The translations under genes and the position numbers were made by a program. Source: a virus. Taken from it: a stretch of DNA of 35,493 nucleotides. The stretch is taken from positions 1 to 35,493 of the IMG/VR virus record IMGVR_UViG_3300005782_000013; one strand, written 5' to 3'. Positions 731 to 8,344 of this stretch are shown in pieces. The first letter of the stretch is position 1; each line of letters starts with the position of its first letter. Under the pieces are notes generated by a model. That model made no database searches. It was not told where the DNA came from and worked only from the letters and a program-made list of their open reading frames with translations.

Positions 731-778
731 TGACGCACTATGCGTTAAAATGCGTCTTTTTGTTGACGCAGTGCGTTA
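731..778. promoter_or_regulatory. Cluster of TGACGCA/TGCGTTA dyads: operator or packaging site
   Basis: Two near-perfect dyads are visible: TGACGCA-CTA-TGCGTTA (731-747) and TGACGCA-G-TGCGTTA (764-778), with a further half-site TGCGTC at 751-756. Together with the pair at 628-654 this makes seven copies of one heptamer family within about 150 bases. The right dyad lies between the -35 and -10 of the putative rightward promoter, as a repressor operator would. Because the next gene is a likely small terminase with a helix-turn-helix, the array could instead be the pac/cos recognition site. Confidence 0.65.
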
Positions 779-789
779 AATACTATAAA
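763..789 (+). promoter_or_regulatory. Probable rightward promoter for the terminase/late operon
   Basis: TTGACG (763-768) is followed after 15 bases by TATAAA (784-789). The spacing is shorter than the ideal 17, so the call is tentative. A start of transcription near 796 would leave a short leader containing GGAGAGG (804-810) before the ATG at 814. The dyad at 764-778 overlaps the -35 and the spacer, so a bound protein would block it. Confidence 0.4.
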
Positions 790-813
790 ATGTTGGGGGA
801 AATGGAGAGGTTA

Positions 814-1320
814 ATGGGTCGAGAGCCAAGTGGGAAATGTTGTATAATTAATGGTCATCCACAGCAAAGTGTGATCGAAAGGTTGATATTGGTTAATATT
901 CCCAACAGGGAAATTGCCAAAAGATATGGGTTGTCAGAATCCACCGTTCGTAGGCACAGAAATACACATATGAATGGTGATTTTTTTAGACCGCCTGTTG
1001 TGGTCGACTCTAACGATGGCCAAGTTGTCCCTAAGTTACCAGCTTTTAATGATATAGCTTCGTGGATTGAATACCTCAGGAAGAGGATTATTCGGATTCT
1101 TGATGTTACTGAGCAACAAGAGAATTATCGTGATGCATTAGGGGCAGCGAGAGAGCTTCGTGGTAATTTGGAATTGATGATAAAAGGCGCAGAACTTTTA
1201 ATGGCGTACAAGTCGTCTCATGATATAGAAAAAGTAATTGAAGTGATACTTGAAGTTTTAGCTCCTTATCAAGAGATTAAAGATAAAGTTGCTGAAGCGT
1301 TGAGAAAACATAGCCTATAA
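814..1320 (+). CDS. Putative terminase small subunit (helix-turn-helix protein)
   Basis: The product is about 168 residues. Its N-terminal part has a helix-turn-helix pattern (NREIAKRYGLSESTVRRH) preceded by KCCIINGHP, resembling the family with a Cys/His-Pro start followed by IA-x-RF/YG-x-S-x-x-x-x-RH that commonly sits directly before large-terminase genes in prophages. The remainder is helical and fits oligomerisation. I chose the ATG at 814 because GGAGAGG precedes it at good distance; a TTG at 760 would place the start inside the dyad cluster and has no ribosome site. The gene stops one base before the terL ATPase ORF, which implies coupling. Its expected role is DNA recognition and handing of DNA to TerL. 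A transcription regulator is the alternative. Confidence 0.6.
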   Translation: MGREPSGKCCIINGHPQQSVIERLILVNIPNREIAKRYGLSESTVRRHRNTHMNGDFFRPPVVVDSNDGQVVPKLPAFNDIASWIEYLRKRIIRILDVTEQQENYRDALGAARELRGNLELMIKGAELLMAYKSSHDIEKVIEVILEVLAPYQEIKDKVAEALRKHSL

Positions 1321-1321
1321 G

Positions 1322-2125
1322 ATGTTTGATAAATTACCTTCGCATAAATATTCTCGTTTATTTTCTAATCGTAATACTAATTTTCATTTAATATCGCTTG
1401 CTTTAGATCCTATTCAATTTATGGCTGATAGCTTTGGGATGGTTCCGGATACTTGGCAAGCAAATTTATTGCGTAATCAACCTGACAATACTTTGTTGCT
1501 TTGTTCTAGGCAATCAGGGAAAAGTACGGTTAGCGCGGCATTAAGCTTGTATCGCGCTACATTTTATAAGAAATCGTTGGTACTTATTATCAGTGCTTCT
1601 TTACGGCAAGCCGAAGAATTATTTAGAAAGGTTAAAAGTGGATTATCCCATGTAACTGCGTTACATCAGATTGTTCGTGAGAATCAATCTATGCTTGAGC
1701 TTTCTAATGGCAGTAGAATAATAAGTTTGCCTGGTAGGGAAGATACTGTTAGAAGCTATTCAAGTGTAGATCTATTGGTTATTGATGAGGCAGCACAAGT
1801 TTCTGATGCGTTATATGCGACTATTAGGCCTATGTTGGCTATATCTCAAGGTAAGCTTTTGGCTCTTACTACTCCCTTTGGTAAACGAGGATGGTTTTTT
1901 AAAACATGGACATTCGGTGGGCATAAATGGGTTAAGGTTAAGGTTACTGCCAATGAATGTTCTAGGATTAGCCAAGATTTTATTGATCAAGAGTTAAAGG
2001 AGGTAGGCGAATGGTGGGTTAAACAAGAGTACTATTGTGAGTTTGTTGATACCGAAAATCAATTATTTGAATTTGAATTAATTGAAGGAGCAGTAAGCAA
2101 TGAAGTTTCCGCGCTTATTTTGTAG
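1322..2125 (+). CDS. Terminase large subunit, ATPase domain only (split TerL, N-terminal half)
   Basis: The 267-residue product contains the packaging-motor ATPase: an adenine-binding DTWQ at 43-46, Walker A CSRQSGKST at 61-69, Walker B VDLLVIDEA at 149-157 and the TTP coupling motif near 183. The typical end of the ATPase region, YYCEFVDTENQLF followed by ELIEGAV, is present, but the frame then stops about a dozen residues later. There is no RNase H-like nuclease domain in this ORF; a matching one starts at 4688. Complete TerL proteins are usually 400-600 residues. The last 26 bases overlap the start of the next gene, and the GAAGGAG that serves that gene lies within this coding sequence. 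This protein would power DNA translocation together with the separate nuclease. Confidence 0.9.
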   Translation: MFDKLPSHKYSRLFSNRNTNFHLISLALDPIQFMADSFGMVPDTWQANLLRNQPDNTLLLCSRQSGKSTVSAALSLYRATFYKKSLVLIISASLRQAEELFRKVKSGLSHVTALHQIVRENQSMLELSNGSRIISLPGREDTVRSYSSVDLLVIDEAAQVSDALYATIRPMLAISQGKLLALTTPFGKRGWFFKTWTFGGHKWVKVKVTANECSRISQDFIDQELKEVGEWWVKQEYYCEFVDTENQLFEFELIEGAVSNEVSALIL

Positions 2126-2753
2126 CTTAATGGCGGCTGTATTTTGTCTCACTATGGCCTTTAGCGTTATGGCTGGTGGAGAGCCTAAAGAATCCGGCTT
2201 GCAAAGCAATGAAGATTCTAATCAGCATAGTCATACTCATGGGACAATAACTCTTTATAAGGGGCCTCATTGGAAACAGACTTATCCCAATGATCCTGAT
2301 CCAGACAATCCTTTAGTAAATCCTGACATTGATTATGAACGAGGTACTTATAGAGATGGTCGTCCTTTTGCTCCTGAGCAAGACACGTTTTTGTTTGGGC
2401 TAAATGCTAACACAAGCCTCAACCCCCTAGCAGGGGTTGGGGTAAGTCAGAATGAATGTAGGGTAACTACTTGTGATCCTTCCCCTGTTTCAGCTGAATT
2501 CGATCAGGTACAACATAAAAGGGCACAAAGACGTGATATGAGTTCAGACAATCCAGAGAGGGATGTTAAAGCAAGTTGTTCTATGGAGCAACCGCCTGAT
2601 CCAGAAGAGTTTAATGATATGGGGAACAAATTGGGTGATATTGCTCACATATTTTTTGGTTGTAAGACAAATACTAAGGAATCAATTATGCGAATGGAAA
2701 TTCCTGGAGATCCATTGGATCAATATCTTAATTTTGTTAAAAGAATAGAATAG
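2100..2753 (+). CDS. Secreted protein of unknown function, first gene of the terL insert
   Basis: The 217-residue product starts with a clear Sec signal peptide: a basic start, a hydrophobic stretch to about residue 24 and a plausible cleavage after VMA at 25. The mature part is hydrophilic, begins near a His cluster (HSHTH) that could bind metal, is rich in Asp/Pro (NDPDPDNP) and carries several Cys (ECRVTTC, SCSM, GCKT), which suggests a disulphide-bonded periplasmic or virion-exposed protein. I do not recognise the family. The start has GAAGGAG nine bases upstream and overlaps terL-ATPase by 26 bases, so it is translated from the same message. Lysis, envelope modification or exclusion of other phages are possible roles; none is shown. 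Confidence 0.75.
   Translation: MKFPRLFCSLMAAVFCLTMAFSVMAGGEPKESGLQSNEDSNQHSHTHGTITLYKGPHWKQTYPNDPDPDNPLVNPDIDYERGTYRDGRPFAPEQDTFLFGLNANTSLNPLAGVGVSQNECRVTTCDPSPVSAEFDQVQHKRAQRRDMSSDNPERDVKASCSMEQPPDPEEFNDMGNKLGDIAHIFFGCKTNTKESIMRMEIPGDPLDQYLNFVKRIE
2420..2439. repeat. GC-rich stem-loop inside the secreted-protein gene
   Basis: CAACCCC at 2420-2426 pairs perfectly with GGGGTTG at 2433-2439 across a six-base loop. Such a GC-rich hairpin is unusual for this AT-rich sequence. It lies in frame within the coding region, so it may be a palindromic insertion or an mRNA structure; it lacks the T-run of a terminator. Confidence 0.5.
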
Positions 2754-2782
2754 AGGGGATTAATAATTAAAGGGGATGTTCC

Positions 2783-3958
2783 ATGGATTTTAAAAAGCAG
2801 GTGGTTGTTTTTTTATCGGTATTAATAGTAATAGTTTTTTTTGCAACTAATGTTTTTGCAAATTGTGGTTATTGTGGAGTTGGGAAAGAAAAAATAGTTT
2901 TAAAAGAAGATTCAACGTCAGAAGAGGAAGATGAGGGCGAAAGTTCTGATGATTTTGAAAGTGCTTATCAGCAGCATGTTCATGATAAGCAAACTTATGA
3001 ACGAATGTACCGAAATGAATTGGAAAGAATCTCTCGTAGTTATCCAAATAATGATCCAACGAAAGATAGAGAACAAGCAAAAGGGTACGTAGATGATTTT
3101 CTCAAACCCGCAATGAACGATAATTTTAAGGAGAAAGATCGTAAATTTGAGCAAGAGAATATAATAAAATCAGAAGTAGATAAAATGTACTCTAATATAA
3201 ATAAGGAATGCGAAAAAGGGAAAAAACCTAGTGCTTCGGATGAGGAGCTTAAAAAACTCGTTGAAGAAAGCAATATTGAATATGACAAAAGGGTAGCTGA
3301 AAAAAATCCTGAATTTAATAAAACGGTTGCTGAAAGAAATATTGAATTTAATAAAAGGATGGCAGCTGAAACTAAAAAATTAAAAGCAGATGATGTAGGA
3401 AGCGATATAAAACAAGGTCCGGGTAGGGTGGATAAAGAGCTTAAGGTAGTTGAAGAGCCAAAAGACATTGTAGAAAAAATAGTTATAAAAGATGTTACAA
3501 AAAACATAGCAAATGGTGAAGACAGTGGTAATGAGGCGGATGTCAGCGGTAGTGGTAGTGATAGTGAAGGGGAGATTGACAATGGTGGGAACCTAGGCGA
3601 TGTTAATGAAAGCAGCGATCACGAAGGTCACGATATGGCTGAATCCGATACAAGCTTTAACGGAACAAGTGGGGAGATAACTGGAGAGGAAGTAAGTGGA
3701 GAAGAGTCTAATGGGTTTAATGATCAAAATATAACCAATGAATTGGTTAATGATTCGTCCGAACAGCTGTCCAGTGGAGTAAATGATCAGTCAACAGAAG
3801 AGTTGTCTGACCAGGAAACAATAACAATAGAAGAAATGAATGCGCAACAAAAACCAATGCAGGATTTATCTAATATGATGTATCATAATCAACGCGATAG
3901 AGATTTCCACAGAATGTTTGTTTTTATCCCCATGATTAGAAGATGGCTTGGGAAGTAA
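2783..3958 (+). CDS. Large acidic secreted or membrane-tethered protein with 11-residue repeats
   Basis: The 391-residue product has a signal peptide or N-terminal anchor (hydrophobic residues 6-23, possible cleavage after VFA at 26) followed by NCGYCG. The rest is highly charged. Residues 40-60 are strongly acidic. Residues 164-196 contain three tandem 11-residue units (starting NIEYDKRVAEK, NPEFNKTVAER, NIEFNKRMAAE), a spacing typical of right-handed coiled coils. Residues of about 245-350 are Ser/Gly/Asp/Glu-rich and probably disordered. The C-terminus turns basic and hydrophobic (FVFIPMIRRWLGK). It starts with an AGGGGA site 7 bases upstream. The shape suggests an elongated periplasmic protein spanning some distance, as a spanin or scaffold would, but no family is recognised. 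Confidence 0.75.
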   Translation: MDFKKQVVVFLSVLIVIVFFATNVFANCGYCGVGKEKIVLKEDSTSEEEDEGESSDDFESAYQQHVHDKQTYERMYRNELERISRSYPNNDPTKDREQAKGYVDDFLKPAMNDNFKEKDRKFEQENIIKSEVDKMYSNINKECEKGKKPSASDEELKKLVEESNIEYDKRVAEKNPEFNKTVAERNIEFNKRMAAETKKLKADDVGSDIKQGPGRVDKELKVVEEPKDIVEKIVIKDVTKNIANGEDSGNEADVSGSGSDSEGEIDNGGNLGDVNESSDHEGHDMAESDTSFNGTSGEITGEEVSGEESNGFNDQNITNELVNDSSEQLSSGVNDQSTEELSDQETITIEEMNAQQKPMQDLSNMMYHNQRDRDFHRMFVFIPMIRRWLGK

Positions 3959-3961
3959 TGT

Positions 3962-3969
3962 GGGGGGGG
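3962..3969 (+). repeat. G8 homopolymer before the start of a membrane-protein gene
   Basis: Eight consecutive G residues lie 11 bases upstream of the ATG at 3981 and provide its apparent Shine-Dalgarno sequence. A change in tract length would change ribosome-site spacing. A similar G7 tract (4191-4197) precedes the next start at 4207. Confidence 0.7.
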
Positions 3970-3980
3970 AAATATTAATA

Positions 3981-4217
3981 ATGGCTTATTCTAAACGGGT
4001 GATAGGATTATTTTTAATTATATTATTTTTATTGTTTTCTTATTGTCCGTTTGTTTATGCTAAAGCGGTTAATTTATTGCCGCATAGGGCATACCATGTC
4101 GCCAATGTCTATAGTTGTCCGGTTTATTTTGAGTGGCAATACCAATACCATAGCACCTTAAAGCACCTACGTTGGTATACTGCTGCAGTTGGGGGGGTGC
4201 TAACAATTGTTTTTTAA
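3981..4217 (+). CDS. Small exported/membrane protein in the terL insert
   Basis: I place the start at the ATG at 3981, which follows the G8 tract; a TTG at 3948 would overlap the previous gene and put 11 residues before the signal. The 78-residue product has a textbook signal sequence (SKR then about 15 hydrophobic residues, possible cleavage after VYA at 27), a short region rich in Tyr/His, and a hydrophobic C-terminus (AAVGGVLTIVF) that could be membrane-inserted. It overlaps the next gene by 11 bases. No family is recognised. A holin- or spanin-like accessory is conceivable from size and topology only. Confidence 0.65.
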   Translation: MAYSKRVIGLFLIILFLLFSYCPFVYAKAVNLLPHRAYHVANVYSCPVYFEWQYQYHSTLKHLRWYTAAVGGVLTIVF

Positions 4218-4683
4218 ATGGAGAGTTATTATATTCTTATTGCTTTTTAGTTTTAATTTAATTGGTTTTAATGCGCATGCTCGTTTTGATGAAATTATAA
4301 TTGATGAACCTGCACCCCCAGAGGAGATTCCGTTAATAGATCCCATTGAATTTGACCATATTGTAAGAGATGATAATAATCGTATAGACCAAGGTGTTGG
4401 TGTTAACGAATTCGTATGCCCATGCATAATTTCTACAGGTATAAGTTTCAGCAGTGCGGCTATAATGGGGTCTTTTTTCCTAGCATATTATTTAAAGGCT
4501 AACGGGTATGGGATAACCGAGGATGAATCAGCATATTATACTAAAAAAATTATTGATAAAATTGATAAAATTGACGAGAAAGTTAATTCTTTTTTTGATC
4601 AATATAAGGGTGATGCTAAGCCAAGCACAGATGTTATGTTAGATAAAGATTCATTAGACGACCCCAAATTTTTATTGCCATAA
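4207..4683 (+). CDS. Exported membrane protein with coiled-coil tail
   Basis: The only available start is the TTG at 4207, preceded by the G7 tract at 4191-4197. The 158-residue product has a signal peptide (cleavage likely after AHA at 25), a Pro/acidic stretch (DEPAPPEEIPLIDP), a CPC motif at 71-73, a transmembrane helix at about 73-96 and a helical segment at 105-132 with heptad-like IDKIDKIDEKV. This topology would place an acidic N-terminal domain outside the inner membrane and a coiled coil on the other side. It ends four bases before the terL nuclease ORF, which lacks its own ribosome site, so termination here may be needed for nuclease translation. Confidence 0.65.
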   Translation: MFFKWRVIIFLLLFSFNLIGFNAHARFDEIIIDEPAPPEEIPLIDPIEFDHIVRDDNNRIDQGVGVNEFVCPCIISTGISFSSAAIMGSFFLAYYLKANGYGITEDESAYYTKKIIDKIDKIDEKVNSFFDQYKGDAKPSTDVMLDKDSLDDPKFLLP

Positions 4684-4687
4684 TATT

Positions 4688-5290
4688 ATGTATCAATACT
4701 TATTAGGATTAGATCTTGGCCAACAAAATGACTATTCTGTGCTATCTATTTTAGAAATAAACAAAGACAATTTAACACAACAAGTTCAATATTCGTTAGT
4801 ATATTTAAAGCGGTACGCTTTAAAAACTTCGTATATGACAATAGCCGATAGTGTAAAAATCATAATTAATTCTAATAAAATTTTAGATAAATATGCTTTG
4901 ATTATTGATCAAACAGGGGTTGGACGTCCTGTGAAGGATGTTTTCCAAGATAATAATATGGCTCCGTTTGGCATTACTATTACCGGGGGGAACAATACTA
5001 ACTGGGAAAATCGAAGGGAGGTTAAAGTCCCTAAGCGGGACATTGTTTCTTCATTGCAAGTCGTATTTCAGAATAAACGTATAAAAATTGCCAGTAATTT
5101 ACCAGATATAGATTTAATCAAAAAAGAATTACTTTATTTTAGATCAAAGATATCTAGCTCTGGGCATGATAGCTATTCAGCTATTTCTAGCATGCATGAT
5201 GATATTGTTATCAGTATTGGATTAGCCATTTGGTATGGGGAATATTTATTTAGCAGAAGAAAAAGTATTAGAATTATTGGAGGAAATTGA
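4688..5290 (+). CDS. Terminase large subunit, nuclease domain only (split TerL, C-terminal half)
   Basis: The 200-residue product begins almost exactly at the RNase H-like nuclease fold of TerL: LGLDLGQQNDYSVL carries the first catalytic Asp, ALIIDQTGVGRPVKDVF the second, and HDDIVISIGLAIW near the end the third. In one-piece terminases this fold follows the ATPase domain after a short linker. Here the ATPase half ends at 2125, with four unrelated genes between. No good Shine-Dalgarno precedes the ATG, and the upstream stop is four bases away, so translational reinitiation is likely. It should cut the concatemer at initiation and termination of packaging, presumably by binding the ATPase protein in trans. 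Confidence 0.9.
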   Translation: MYQYLLGLDLGQQNDYSVLSILEINKDNLTQQVQYSLVYLKRYALKTSYMTIADSVKIIINSNKILDKYALIIDQTGVGRPVKDVFQDNNMAPFGITITGGNNTNWENRREVKVPKRDIVSSLQVVFQNKRIKIASNLPDIDLIKKELLYFRSKISSSGHDSYSAISSMHDDIVISIGLAIWYGEYLFSRRKSIRIIGGN

Positions 5291-5336
5291 ATATAATATA
5301 ACATATTATTGTTTAAATTAGAAACCAAAGGTTAAG

Positions 5337-6773
5337 ATGACTAGAAATATATCAAAAAAAACAAGGAAACTTCATGCTGTTTCTCTTGAACGTAATGATG
5401 AAAAAGAGTTATCCTCAGTGTTTATTTCTGGGAATAAATTGTTAAAAGAGCTTATGTCTTCTAGGTCTTTTAATACATCGCATTATCCTAGTACAACCGA
5501 TTCAGCTTTAAATTACCCTACCAGCCTAGACTATTACGATTATCTATATAAATATACTCGGCAAGATATAGCCCAAAGGATTATTCAAGCGCCAGTAGGG
5601 GCTACGTGGAGGTATACTCCTAACGTTTTTGAATCTGATGAAGGAGAAACTTCATTTGAATTAGCATATGCTAAGTTAGTAGATCAGCTAGATTTATATA
5701 ATTGTCTAAAACGATTAGATTTATTGGCTGGGTTAGGTAGATATTCAATTTTATACCTAGGCTTTGATGATTCTGAGAATTTAGCTACTCCTCCTAAACG
5801 AGGGTCTAAATTATTATATTTATCTCCTATCCCTGAACCTAGAGCACAAATAAGTACTTGGGATACTTCAATTAGATCAAGTGGATACGGCCATCCATTA
5901 ATGTATAGCGTGCAAATTGCATCATTAATTACTGGGGAAACCATTGGTTCTCGAGCGATTCATTGGTCTAGGATTATTCATGTTGCCGAAAATACATTAG
6001 ACAATGAGTTTTATGGGTTGCCTAGATTAGAATGTGTTTACAATAGGTTGTTGGGCTTAGAAAAATTGGCTGGTGGTTCTCCAGAAATGTATTGGCGTGG
6101 AGCTAGACCAGGCTATACCGCTCAAGCCGCTGAAAATACTATTTTGACAGATTCTCAATTAGAGGGGTTAAAGGGACAATTATCTGATTTTGTTAATAAT
6201 TTACAAAGATGGTTATATGTGGAGGGGTTAAATATCCAATCATTAGCTCCCCAAGTTGTTTCCCCTACGGATCATGTTGATGTTCAATTACAATTAATCA
6301 GTGCTGCTACTAGAATCCCTATAAGAATCTTAATTGGATCAGAAAGGGGTGAATTGGCTTCAAGCCAAGATGAACGAGCATGGCTCTCTTTTATAGAGGA
6401 GAGAAGACAAGAAGTTGCCGATAGAATAATTTTAAGGCCATTGATTAATAGGTTGATTGGGTTTGATGTTTTGCCACAGCCAGATAATTCTTTTTATATT
6501 GAATGGGAGCCATTATTAGTTCTTTCAGATAAAGAAAAAGCTGAAATAGGTAAAATTCATACTGAAACTTTATCAAAGTATTTAGAAACGGTAGGAGGCA
6601 CTGAATTAATTCCACCTGAGTTATTTTTAAGTAGAGAGTTGGGGATGTCTACTGCGGAGATTGAGCTTGCTAAAAATATTGTAGAAGATTTAGTTAAAAC
6701 AGATGAAATAGAAGAAGATCAAAAAGAAGAAGAAATAGAAGAAAAGGGAGAGATAGATGAAAGTATTGAGTGA
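5337..6773 (+). CDS. Portal protein (DUF1073 type)
   Basis: The 478-residue product matches the DUF1073 portal family in length and landmarks: an N-terminal stretch with YDYLYKYTRQDIAQRII, then GRYSILYLGF, SRIIHVAENTLDNEFYGLPRLE, the GGSPEMYWRGARPGY segment, and RILIGSERGELASSQDERAW late in the protein. The C-terminus is very acidic (many Glu/Lys), probably flexible. The portal forms the dodecameric ring at the packaging vertex, binds terminase and seeds head assembly. AAAGG precedes the ATG. The gene overlaps thyX by 17 bases. Its position directly after the terL nuclease half follows normal phage order, showing that the terL insert does not disturb the rest of the module. Confidence 0.9.
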   Translation: MTRNISKKTRKLHAVSLERNDEKELSSVFISGNKLLKELMSSRSFNTSHYPSTTDSALNYPTSLDYYDYLYKYTRQDIAQRIIQAPVGATWRYTPNVFESDEGETSFELAYAKLVDQLDLYNCLKRLDLLAGLGRYSILYLGFDDSENLATPPKRGSKLLYLSPIPEPRAQISTWDTSIRSSGYGHPLMYSVQIASLITGETIGSRAIHWSRIIHVAENTLDNEFYGLPRLECVYNRLLGLEKLAGGSPEMYWRGARPGYTAQAAENTILTDSQLEGLKGQLSDFVNNLQRWLYVEGLNIQSLAPQVVSPTDHVDVQLQLISAATRIPIRILIGSERGELASSQDERAWLSFIEERRQEVADRIILRPLINRLIGFDVLPQPDNSFYIEWEPLLVLSDKEKAEIGKIHTETLSKYLETVGGTELIPPELFLSRELGMSTAEIELAKNIVEDLVKTDEIEEDQKEEEIEEKGEIDESIE

Positions 6774-7380
6774 AAAGATAAATATTATAAATTTTCCAGA
6801 CAAAAATGAAGTTTATAATAGGATAAACGGGGCTGCTACAGTTTGCTATCAGTCTTATCATAATGGGGCTGAATGCATCGAAAAATTTGTTAAAAAGTTA
6901 GTGAAAATGGGGCATCATAGTGTTTTAGAACACGTAAATATTACTGTGGCGATTGTTTGTGATCGTGGAGTTAGTCATGAATTAGTTAGGCATCGGTTGG
7001 CATCTTATAGTCAAGAATCTACTAGATATTGTAATTACGCTAGTGAAGGGTTTGGTGAAGAGATCGCCGTTATAAGGCCTATTTTTTATGATGAAGGCTC
7101 TCAGGCATATGAGGCATGGTATGCTGCGATGCAGCATTGTGAGGCTGCTTATTTAGGCTTAATAGAAACTGGTAGCTCTCCTCAAGAAGCTAGATCTGTT
7201 TTGCCCACTAGCTTAAAAACCGAAATAGTAATCACTGCTAATTTACAAGAATGGCGTCACATTTTTAATGTGAGATGTAAGCCGGCAGCACACCCTCAGA
7301 TGCGTTTTGTTATGAATAAATTATTAAAAGAATTTAAGGAAAGGTGTCCATTAGTCTTTGAAGATATTGTTGGCGAATAA
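6757..7380 (+). CDS. thyX: Flavin-dependent thymidylate synthase ThyX
   Basis: The 207-residue product has the ThyX signature RHRLASYSQESTRY, which fits the RHR-x7-S pattern with the nucleophilic/phosphate-binding Ser. It also has GHHSVLEHV upstream and LQEWRHIFNVRCKPAAHPQMR downstream, which bind FAD and dUMP. The enzyme makes dTMP from dUMP using methylene-tetrahydrofolate and NAD(P)H. Length is normal, so it is probably active. Placement is odd: it is nested between portal and MuF-like head genes, overlapping portal by 17 bases, instead of in the replication operon. It would therefore be made with late proteins, or the whole operon is expressed early enough to help supply thymidine for the AT-rich genome. 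Confidence 0.95.
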   Translation: MKVLSEKINIINFPDKNEVYNRINGAATVCYQSYHNGAECIEKFVKKLVKMGHHSVLEHVNITVAIVCDRGVSHELVRHRLASYSQESTRYCNYASEGFGEEIAVIRPIFYDEGSQAYEAWYAAMQHCEAAYLGLIETGSSPQEARSVLPTSLKTEIVITANLQEWRHIFNVRCKPAAHPQMRFVMNKLLKEFKERCPLVFEDIVGE

Positions 7381-7381
7381 A

Positions 7382-8344
7382 ATGATTCCTGTAGGCCTTT
7401 ACCAATTATTTAAGAGAGCGACCAAGGTTGACCCTACAAGAACATTAACATTAAGAAATAATTTTGCTCAAGACTTTAAAAATAGATTTAGGGCTATTAA
7501 GAATTTAATCCGTACCAGTATTGTCAAAAATGATTGTTTTGGCCTAAAAAAAGCTGGTTATGGTTTATTGTCGTCTATGGTAGTTACTCCATCCTCTAAG
7601 AATACTTCTGGGTGGAAGACTGAAATATACCCAATTACATATCGACAATATGCAGGGCAAAATGATGGTGATAAAATTGATAATTTTTTAGATTGGCTTG
7701 AAGAGAATGAAGATATTGCTCTTTTTCAAGAAGATCGTACTGGGCGTTCTACTAAGGTTAAAAATTCAATTTGGGCTGATATTTATATTAGAGCGGCTTA
7801 TTTATTAGGGATGCAATTTGCTAGAAACTACATTAAGAAAAACGATAACTTAATGAAAAAACTAGATATTTACTATGATATAAATACTGATAGCTCCGCT
7901 ATATTAAGTGATTTTATGATAAGAGATGTTCATTCTGAAGCTGTTGATTTAATTTATAATAGGGTTTATACTGATCTTGAAGGTATTACTTCAACTATTG
8001 AGGCTAACTTACGGAGAATATTGTCAGATGGGTTGGTTGCTGGAGAATCTCCGTTAAAAATAGCTAAAGATATTGTTAAAAAAATTGATTCAATTGGGAT
8101 TAATAGAGCTGAATTAATAGCTAGGACTGAAACTATTAGAGCACATCATCAGGCAAGCATTAACGAATACGAACGATATGGGGTCGATAAAGTTAAAGTA
8201 GAGGTTGAGTGGGTAACTGCATTTGATCCGTGTTCTATTTGTGCTGAATTAAGTGGTAAGTTCTTTACATTAAAAGAAATTTATACTATGATACCTAAAC
8301 ATCCTAGGTGTAGATGCGTTGCAGTCCCAATTGTTGAAGAATAA
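7382..8344 (+). CDS. MuF-like minor head protein
   Basis: The C-terminal third is a clear phage Mu F / SPP1 gp7 head-morphogenesis domain: LIARTETIRAHHQASINEYERYG, then WVTAFDPCSICAELSGKFF and HPRCRCVAVP with the conserved Cys pairs and His. The N-terminal 200 residues are helical and less conserved. I favour the ATG at 7382, two bases after the thyX stop, giving 320 residues; a TTG at 7358 inside thyX is the alternative. MuF-like proteins sit on the portal inside the procapsid and can be ejected or carry extra effector domains, but no toxin domain is evident here. Confidence 0.85.
   Translation: MIPVGLYQLFKRATKVDPTRTLTLRNNFAQDFKNRFRAIKNLIRTSIVKNDCFGLKKAGYGLLSSMVVTPSSKNTSGWKTEIYPITYRQYAGQNDGDKIDNFLDWLEENEDIALFQEDRTGRSTKVKNSIWADIYIRAAYLLGMQFARNYIKKNDNLMKKLDIYYDINTDSSAILSDFMIRDVHSEAVDLIYNRVYTDLEGITSTIEANLRRILSDGLVAGESPLKIAKDIVKKIDSIGINRAELIARTETIRAHHQASINEYERYGVDKVKVEVEWVTAFDPCSICAELSGKFFTLKEIYTMIPKHPRCRCVAVPIVEE

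Follow-up and report, generated by a model that had tools for sequence, protein, structure and literature searches.

A terminase large subunit encoded as separate ATPase and nuclease genes in a siphophage-type genome and its relatives

Background

In the textbook view, the large terminase subunit (TerL) is a single polypeptide, in which hinge coupling of the ATPase and nuclease domains drives DNA translocation and controls cutting. The viral metagenomic record IMGVR_UViG_3300005782_000013 (positions 1 to 35,493; this whole 35.5 kb stretch is referred to as the window) does not have this form: its TerL-like ATPase (1322-2125) and RNase H-like nuclease (4688-5290) are separate open reading frames (ORFs), 2.56 kb apart, with four other ORFs between them. 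The locus raises the question whether such a pair is a working terminase made of two proteins, or a one-chain enzyme that has been interrupted and is either rejoined, decaying or wrongly assembled. An earlier interpretation made from the letters alone (the sequence-only reading) had favored a functional two-protein motor. Here this proposal is examined by profile searches, structure prediction and comparison with related loci.

Results and discussion

The two ORFs are complete halves of TerL

The ATPase ORF matched Pfam Terminase_6N (E 6.7e-16) and covered positions 3-238 of the 239-aa model of phrog_7579, annotated as 'terminase large subunit' (E 7.6e-59). It is 40-43% identical to the TerL of Riverbug, a Thermus phage, and of the MMP phages of Meiothermus. 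A profile of its relatives matched P74-26 TerL (4zni) and T4 gp17 (2o0h), and the ATPase domains of the same two proteins were the best PDB matches of the AlphaFold2 model (predicted local distance difference test score, pLDDT, 89; Foldseek E ~1e-14 against 4zni/2o0j). In the Walker A motif RQSGKS, residues R63, Q64, G66, K67 and S68 were invariant among 53 relatives, as were the Walker B and catalytic residues D155 and E156. The protein thus has the Walker A, Walker B and catalytic glutamate of the additional-strand catalytic E (ASCE) P-loop ATPases that characterize T4- and P74-26-like TerL, and it is a complete TerL ATPase half.

The nuclease ORF had no match in Pfam or NCBIfam, and its sole strong PHROG match was phrog_27743 (233 aa), a family of 'unknown function' (E 2e-39). 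A 59-row nuclease profile matched the TerL nuclease structures of the Thermus phages G20c/P74-26 (5m1f and 5tge, E ~1e-15) and, weakly, herpesvirus UL15 (E 0.0065). The AlphaFold2 model (pLDDT 90) found 5m1f, the G20c nuclease, as its best PDB match (Foldseek E 5e-10), together with 5tge, SPP1 2wbn and human cytomegalovirus 3n4p. Residues D9, D74, D171 and D172 were invariant in the 59 rows, and the RNase H fold with an acidic metal-binding triad, as in T4- and P74-26-like TerL, is present. This ORF is a complete TerL nuclease half. These results bear out the sequence-only reading in its claims that the protein is split at its domain boundary and that the catalytic motifs of both parts are intact, and the profile searches proposed with it identified both parts as TerL. 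They also allow phrog_27743, and the 'hypothetical' genes that lie beside 'terminase family' genes, to be assigned as TerL nucleases.

The window carries a single TerL ATPase and a single TerL nuclease. A second complete terL, the finding of which would have spoken against a working pair, was not detected in the record by ATPase protein search, by Pfam Terminase_6N or by PHROG scans of the other ORFs scanned.

The split point and the intervening genes

Alignment to the one-piece TerL of Thermus and Meiothermus phages placed the break in the short linker between the domains, with no conserved segment lost. The first of the four intervening genes (hereafter cargo) shares its first 26 nt, in another frame, with the end of the ATPase gene, and the ATG of the nuclease lies 4 nt past the stop of the fourth. 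All four cargo ORFs have a hydrophobic N-terminal segment, in agreement with their earlier description as signal-peptide or membrane genes. Their description as foreign-looking could not be upheld, and compositional foreignness was rejected: the GC content is 0.363 in the cargo versus 0.366 in the window. None of the four had a Pfam match above the cut-off or a convincing PHROG match; ORFs 1, 2 and 4 had no NCBIfam match, and ORFs 1 and 4 had no relatives in IMG/VR. A search for repeats at the flanks or in tandem, as possible signs of a mobile element at the insert, gave only weak, chance-like repeats and, within the coding sequence of cargo ORF 2, one of 33 nt. Promoter-like sites were as numerous as in shuffled sequence, and no terminator-like site was found inside the gap.

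It had been pointed out that the nuclease lacks a ribosome site. A Shine-Dalgarno-like motif is indeed absent, but this does not distinguish the gene, since only 12 of the 42 window genes have such a motif and 30 are without it. Translational coupling is possible.

Two-gene terminases in related loci

The window and retrieved loci (given L numbers below), 171 sequences in all, were searched with hidden Markov models of both halves. The halves were in different ORFs in 104 of the 106 related loci having both domains, a proportion from a homology sample found mostly with profiles from split members, in which the frequency of one-piece TerL is underestimated. The two exceptions were Meiothermus phage MMP17, which has a one-piece TerL, and L061, which seems to consist of two genes, the frame changing within the ATPase. 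Among 76 non-redundant pairs the gap was 350 bp or less in about 61, often with an overlap of a few bases; it measured 350-1000 bp in 6 pairs and 1-2.6 kb in 8, and the order was reversed in 1. Relatives with a gap were found, and their gaps differ in content (see below). Phages as well as archaeal and bacterial metagenome-assembled genomes contributed the loci; the named hosts of the latter include archaea (Methanoregula/Methanothrix) and, among bacteria, Acidobacteriota, Myxococcota, Magnetococcales, Actinomycetota, Gemmatimonadota, Chloroflexota and Planctomycetota.

Nearly all two-gene members fell into one strongly supported group (100/99 in the first tree and 99/99 in the later tree, of which the pSR11 row was disregarded). 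The window, with its stand-alone ATPase of phrog_7579 and stand-alone nuclease of phrog_27743, lies inside this mostly two-gene clade. Placing all two-gene rows in a single clade was not rejected by the approximately unbiased (AU) test (p 0.77). The two halves show correlated pairwise distances (Mantel 0.415, 0/2000 permutations). In our reading, a broad clade of tailed viruses and plasmids derived from viruses has long had its terminase in two genes. The separation into two genes is far older than the insert, since the genes abut in most relatives, and cargo arrived later in some lineages. The first tree suggested a re-fusion in the Thermus/Meiothermus phages; this is not claimed, since the AU result allows a single two-gene clade.

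The pair also occurs on closed plasmids of cultured Salinibacter ruber, namely pSR31 (RM158), pSR14 (SP38) and pSR11 (M8). There the two genes overlap and are annotated as 'terminase family protein' and 'hypothetical protein', and the models of phrog_7579 and phrog_27743 are covered from end to end by the pSR11 proteins. Closed isolate plasmids with the pair show that the two-gene form is not a metagenome artefact, and they offer a cultured system in which it can be studied. Besides the terminase pair, pSR11 (L173, NC_014026.1, 11.2 kb) and pSR14 (L174, 14.9 kb) carry a primase and ParA, and no portal or capsid match was obtained among the pSR11 genes scanned; these may be packaging-parasite (satellite) plasmids.

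Several loci show further variations. On the methanogen-associated contig L110 (10001-11926) the order is nuclease, helix-turn-helix (HTH) ORF resembling a small terminase (TerS), ATPase. The nuclease gene is duplicated beside one ATPase in L115 (519-2459, three copies), L117, L118, L123, L051 and pSR31 (L172:5178-6436), and the catalytic acids are kept in the copies of all six; in L077 the second copy has lost the first Asp. The 26-kb contig L029/L042 (IMGVR 3300024265_002405) has a nuclease half, directly followed by a 1995-aa ORF without Pfam family, and no ATPase half was found on it. L163 (10705-11202, on the same contig as L064) has between ATPase and nuclease a further TerL-like ATPase ORF (165 aa) that is divergent and carries GKST, resembling a Walker A motif, and IDDAD as Walker B; it is possibly a duplication of the ATPase half. 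In L158 (4622-6091) a clade-type ATPase is part of a one-piece TerL whose C-terminal nuclease was not recognized by the clade nuclease profile, possibly a fusion to another nuclease family.

Cargo and selection in the clade of the window

In the clade that contains the window (n=8, support 100/100) at least 311 bp separate the halves in all members, and the cargo is unrelated between subclades. The four secreted ORFs are found in the window; L028 has full-length glutamate dehydrogenase and DUF5320 genes (4427-5989), an unusual metabolic cargo for a phage; L002, L003, L047 and L049 encode a cytosolic protein, a small secreted protein and a lipoprotein-like protein; L030 and L031 have one short ORF. 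Cargo is ancestral in this clade but changing. As the content of the gap varies by subclade, the junction is a tolerated insertion site and not the mark of a single event special to the window phage.

The ratio of non-synonymous to synonymous substitution rates (dN/dS) was calculated for close cargo-bearing pairs. With L002/L003 the following values were obtained: 0.059 (ATPase), 0.087 (nuclease), 0.076 (portal) and 0.20-0.24 (cargo). Across two such pairs the values for both halves were 0.05-0.13. The L002/L003 values indicate that both halves stay under selection while cargo separates them.

A C-terminal motif of the two-gene ATPases

The two-gene ATPases end near the same point (median tail 6.5 aa), and many carry a C-terminal [DE]V-x-P-L-[FWE] motif. 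PL[FWE] was found in 45 of 89 ATPases, in 40 of these exactly 28 aa past the EY anchor. A second copy was present in 7 of 18 longer tails, compared with 0.38 expected in shuffles and a maximum of 4 in any of 5000 shuffles, for a pattern that was chosen after inspecting the tails. Examples with [DE]VxPLF at the C-terminus are L110, L108, L111, L159 and L067. The motif is a candidate docking site for the nuclease; this is speculative and is offered as a lead only.

Interpretation of the split terminase

We consider that a packaging motor built from two polypeptides acting in trans is the best explanation of these data, and a fairly probable one. According to this model the ATPase and the nuclease would be translated as separate proteins, which would come together at the portal, without a covalent bond, to form a single motor for packaging. 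The break lies in the flexible interdomain linker, at no cost to any conserved element of either domain. The independence of the two genes has made their junction a place where insertions are tolerated, with four secreted or membrane proteins as the cargo of the window. The judgement of the sequence-only reading that the pair is functional rather than decaying is supported by the clade-wide arrangement, by purifying selection, by the recurrence of the gap with other content in relatives, and by the absence of an intron match and of a second terL in the record; that the two proteins form one motor is our inference. Several observations weigh against this model. When the T4 ATPase and nuclease domains were separated without the hinge, they kept their activities and lost DNA translocation completely (PMC9958956). 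Closely related Thermus/Meiothermus phages have a one-piece TerL, and the homology sample is biased as described above. The relative frame is -1 in 42 of the 76 pairs, and a -1 frameshift fusion is possible in relatives with overlapping genes. Finally, the C-terminal motif of the window's own ATPase is eroded (NEVSALIL) and degenerate in its clade. A more general proposal, which we hold only tentatively and rather doubt than believe, is that the whole tailed-virus clade uses a hetero-oligomeric motor in trans, possibly held together by the repeated [DE]VxPLF docking motif, and that the hinge is dispensable in a natural motor. If this were true, subunit numbers would be uncoupled, which would allow nuclease duplication and specialization as well as free insertion of cargo at the junction.

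It is also conceivable that the ATPase ring alone translocates and that the nuclease is a separate, transiently recruited cutter, an arrangement closer to a phi29-like motor with a free nuclease. In accordance with this, the halves need not adjoin or keep the usual order (L110, and the L029 nuclease with no ATPase in 26 kb), and the duplicated nucleases beside one ATPase in L115, L117, L118, L123 and pSR31 imply that their ratio need not be 1:1. T4-type motors, however, need the C-terminal domain for translocation (PMC9958956, PMC8589836), the adjacency of the genes in most relatives points to coordinated production, and the halves have correlated evolutionary distances; taken together, we regard a free nuclease as unlikely, though worth keeping in mind.

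Far less probable is that the 2.6-kb insert is removed as an intron or intein, or bypassed by frameshifting or readthrough, to restore a one-chain TerL. Such a route is known from Jug phages, in which spliced group I introns in terL are documented and which resemble the window in having separate ORFs with intervening DNA (PMC12363816). There, splicing restores one chain, the introns average ~206 nt and the intervening genes are homing endonucleases (PMC12363816). In the window, by contrast, no group I or II intron matched in Rfam at E up to 1 over its whole length, the gap has 53-92 stops per frame, the split is clade-wide and at the domain boundary, and the cargo consists of unrelated genes, which in the clade code for secreted or membrane proteins or for an enzyme and not for homing endonucleases. 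The overlapping genes of many relatives would permit frameshifting, yet the ORFs of most relatives abut, each with a stop or start codon of its own, and leave nothing to excise, and in L110 the order is reversed. In the cargo-bearing and order-reversed cases nothing was found to join the halves at the DNA, RNA-intron or frameshift level. The occurrence of some relatives on small plasmids without a recognized portal or capsid among the scanned genes (pSR11, 11 kb) could suggest a disrupted, decaying terminase of a defective prophage or satellite. This is hardly compatible with the invariance of all catalytic residues, with the low dN/dS of both halves in the two close cargo-bearing pairs or with the portal, head, tail, tape-measure, RecT, SSB and helicase-loader genes of the window, and we consider it most improbable. 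An assembly or binning artefact, with 2126-4687 placed between the halves of one gene, would be conceivable for a metagenomic record, but independent contigs share the split with other gap sizes and content and closed isolate plasmids have the two-gene form, which leaves it next to no credibility.

Relation to known systems

In their folds, catalytic residues and place adjoining the portal gene, the two halves in the window resemble the TerL of T4 (gp17), Thermus P74-26/G20c, Riverbug and Meiothermus MMP7/MMP17. They differ from these one-piece proteins in being separate, with independent starts and stops, whereas T4 needs the covalent hinge (PMC9958956). Essential enzymes made of several polypeptides have been described in jumbo phages (RNA polymerase beta/beta' pieces, DNA polymerase III core), where the pieces presumably reassemble (PMC7824862); the same work treats the fused ATPase-nuclease TerL as universal in its jumbo phages, unlike the window. 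Both protein families of the window are represented in PHROG, phrog_27743 as 'unknown', and the nuclease is named 'hypothetical protein' in the NCBI record of pSR11; their pairing as a split terminase is unannotated. The open-access literature searched yielded no description of a clade in which the ATPase and the nuclease of TerL have separate genes. Fold and role are those of TerL, and the departure from known forms is the absence of the covalent link. The naturally separated domains permit a direct test of a motor acting in trans, of the ratio of engine to cutter and of the restraint of the cutter during packaging. Genome screens demanding a full-length TerL as a hallmark will miss such genomes.

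Genome context

The window genome is siphophage-type and probably near-complete. In addition to the genes in Table 1, Pfam and PHROG scans recognized a protease, major head protein, neck, tail tube, tape measure, tail fibre J, SSB, a DnaC-like loader and RecT. Near-completeness is suggested by the ORF cut off at the left end, which aligns over nearly its whole length with a complete 184-aa ORF of the relative L028, and by the size of the longer related records (36-42 kb). The terminase pair lies, as is usual for TerL, beside the portal gene and a small HTH ORF. From its position and the weak HTH matches, the product of this ORF is a candidate TerS; in L028 (2994-3623) the ATPase is preceded by a comparable HTH ORF, and in L110 such an ORF separates the nuclease from the ATPase.

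Table 1. Features of the terminase region of the window and evidence for their assignment
Feature	Position	Strand	Length	Evidence or remarks
Small HTH protein, candidate small terminase (TerS)	760..1320	+		Weak HTH matches only; directly upstream of ATPase gene
TerL ATPase half, phrog_7579 type	1322..2125	+	267 aa	Terminase_6N; phrog_7579; AlphaFold2 fold; Walker A/B
Cargo ORF 1, N-terminal signal-like segment	2100..2753	+	217 aa	ORF call, hydrophobicity; AGGAG upstream
Cargo ORF 2, acidic, N-terminal signal-like segment	2783..3958	+	391 aa	33-nt tandem repeat at 3266-3364
Cargo ORF 3, hydrophobic N-terminus	3981..4217	+	78 aa from ATG	Frame opens with TTG at 3948
Cargo ORF 4, N-terminal signal-like segment and further hydrophobic windows	4207..4683	+	158 aa	TTG start
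TerL nuclease half, RNase H-like, phrog_27743 type	4688..5290	+	200 aa	Profile, AlphaFold2 fold, conserved Asp
Portal protein (Phage_portal_3)	5337..6773	+		Pfam PF06381 E 1.9e-31; phrog_146 E 2.8e-57
ThyX thymidylate synthase, between portal and head morphogenesis gene	6757..7380	+		Pfam Thy1 E 1.6e-49
SPP1 gp7/MuF-type head morphogenesis protein	7358..8344	+		phrog_758 E 2.5e-34

The counterpart of the window ThyX in L028 (8204-9022) is ThyX-like by eye and is without the usual RHR signature.

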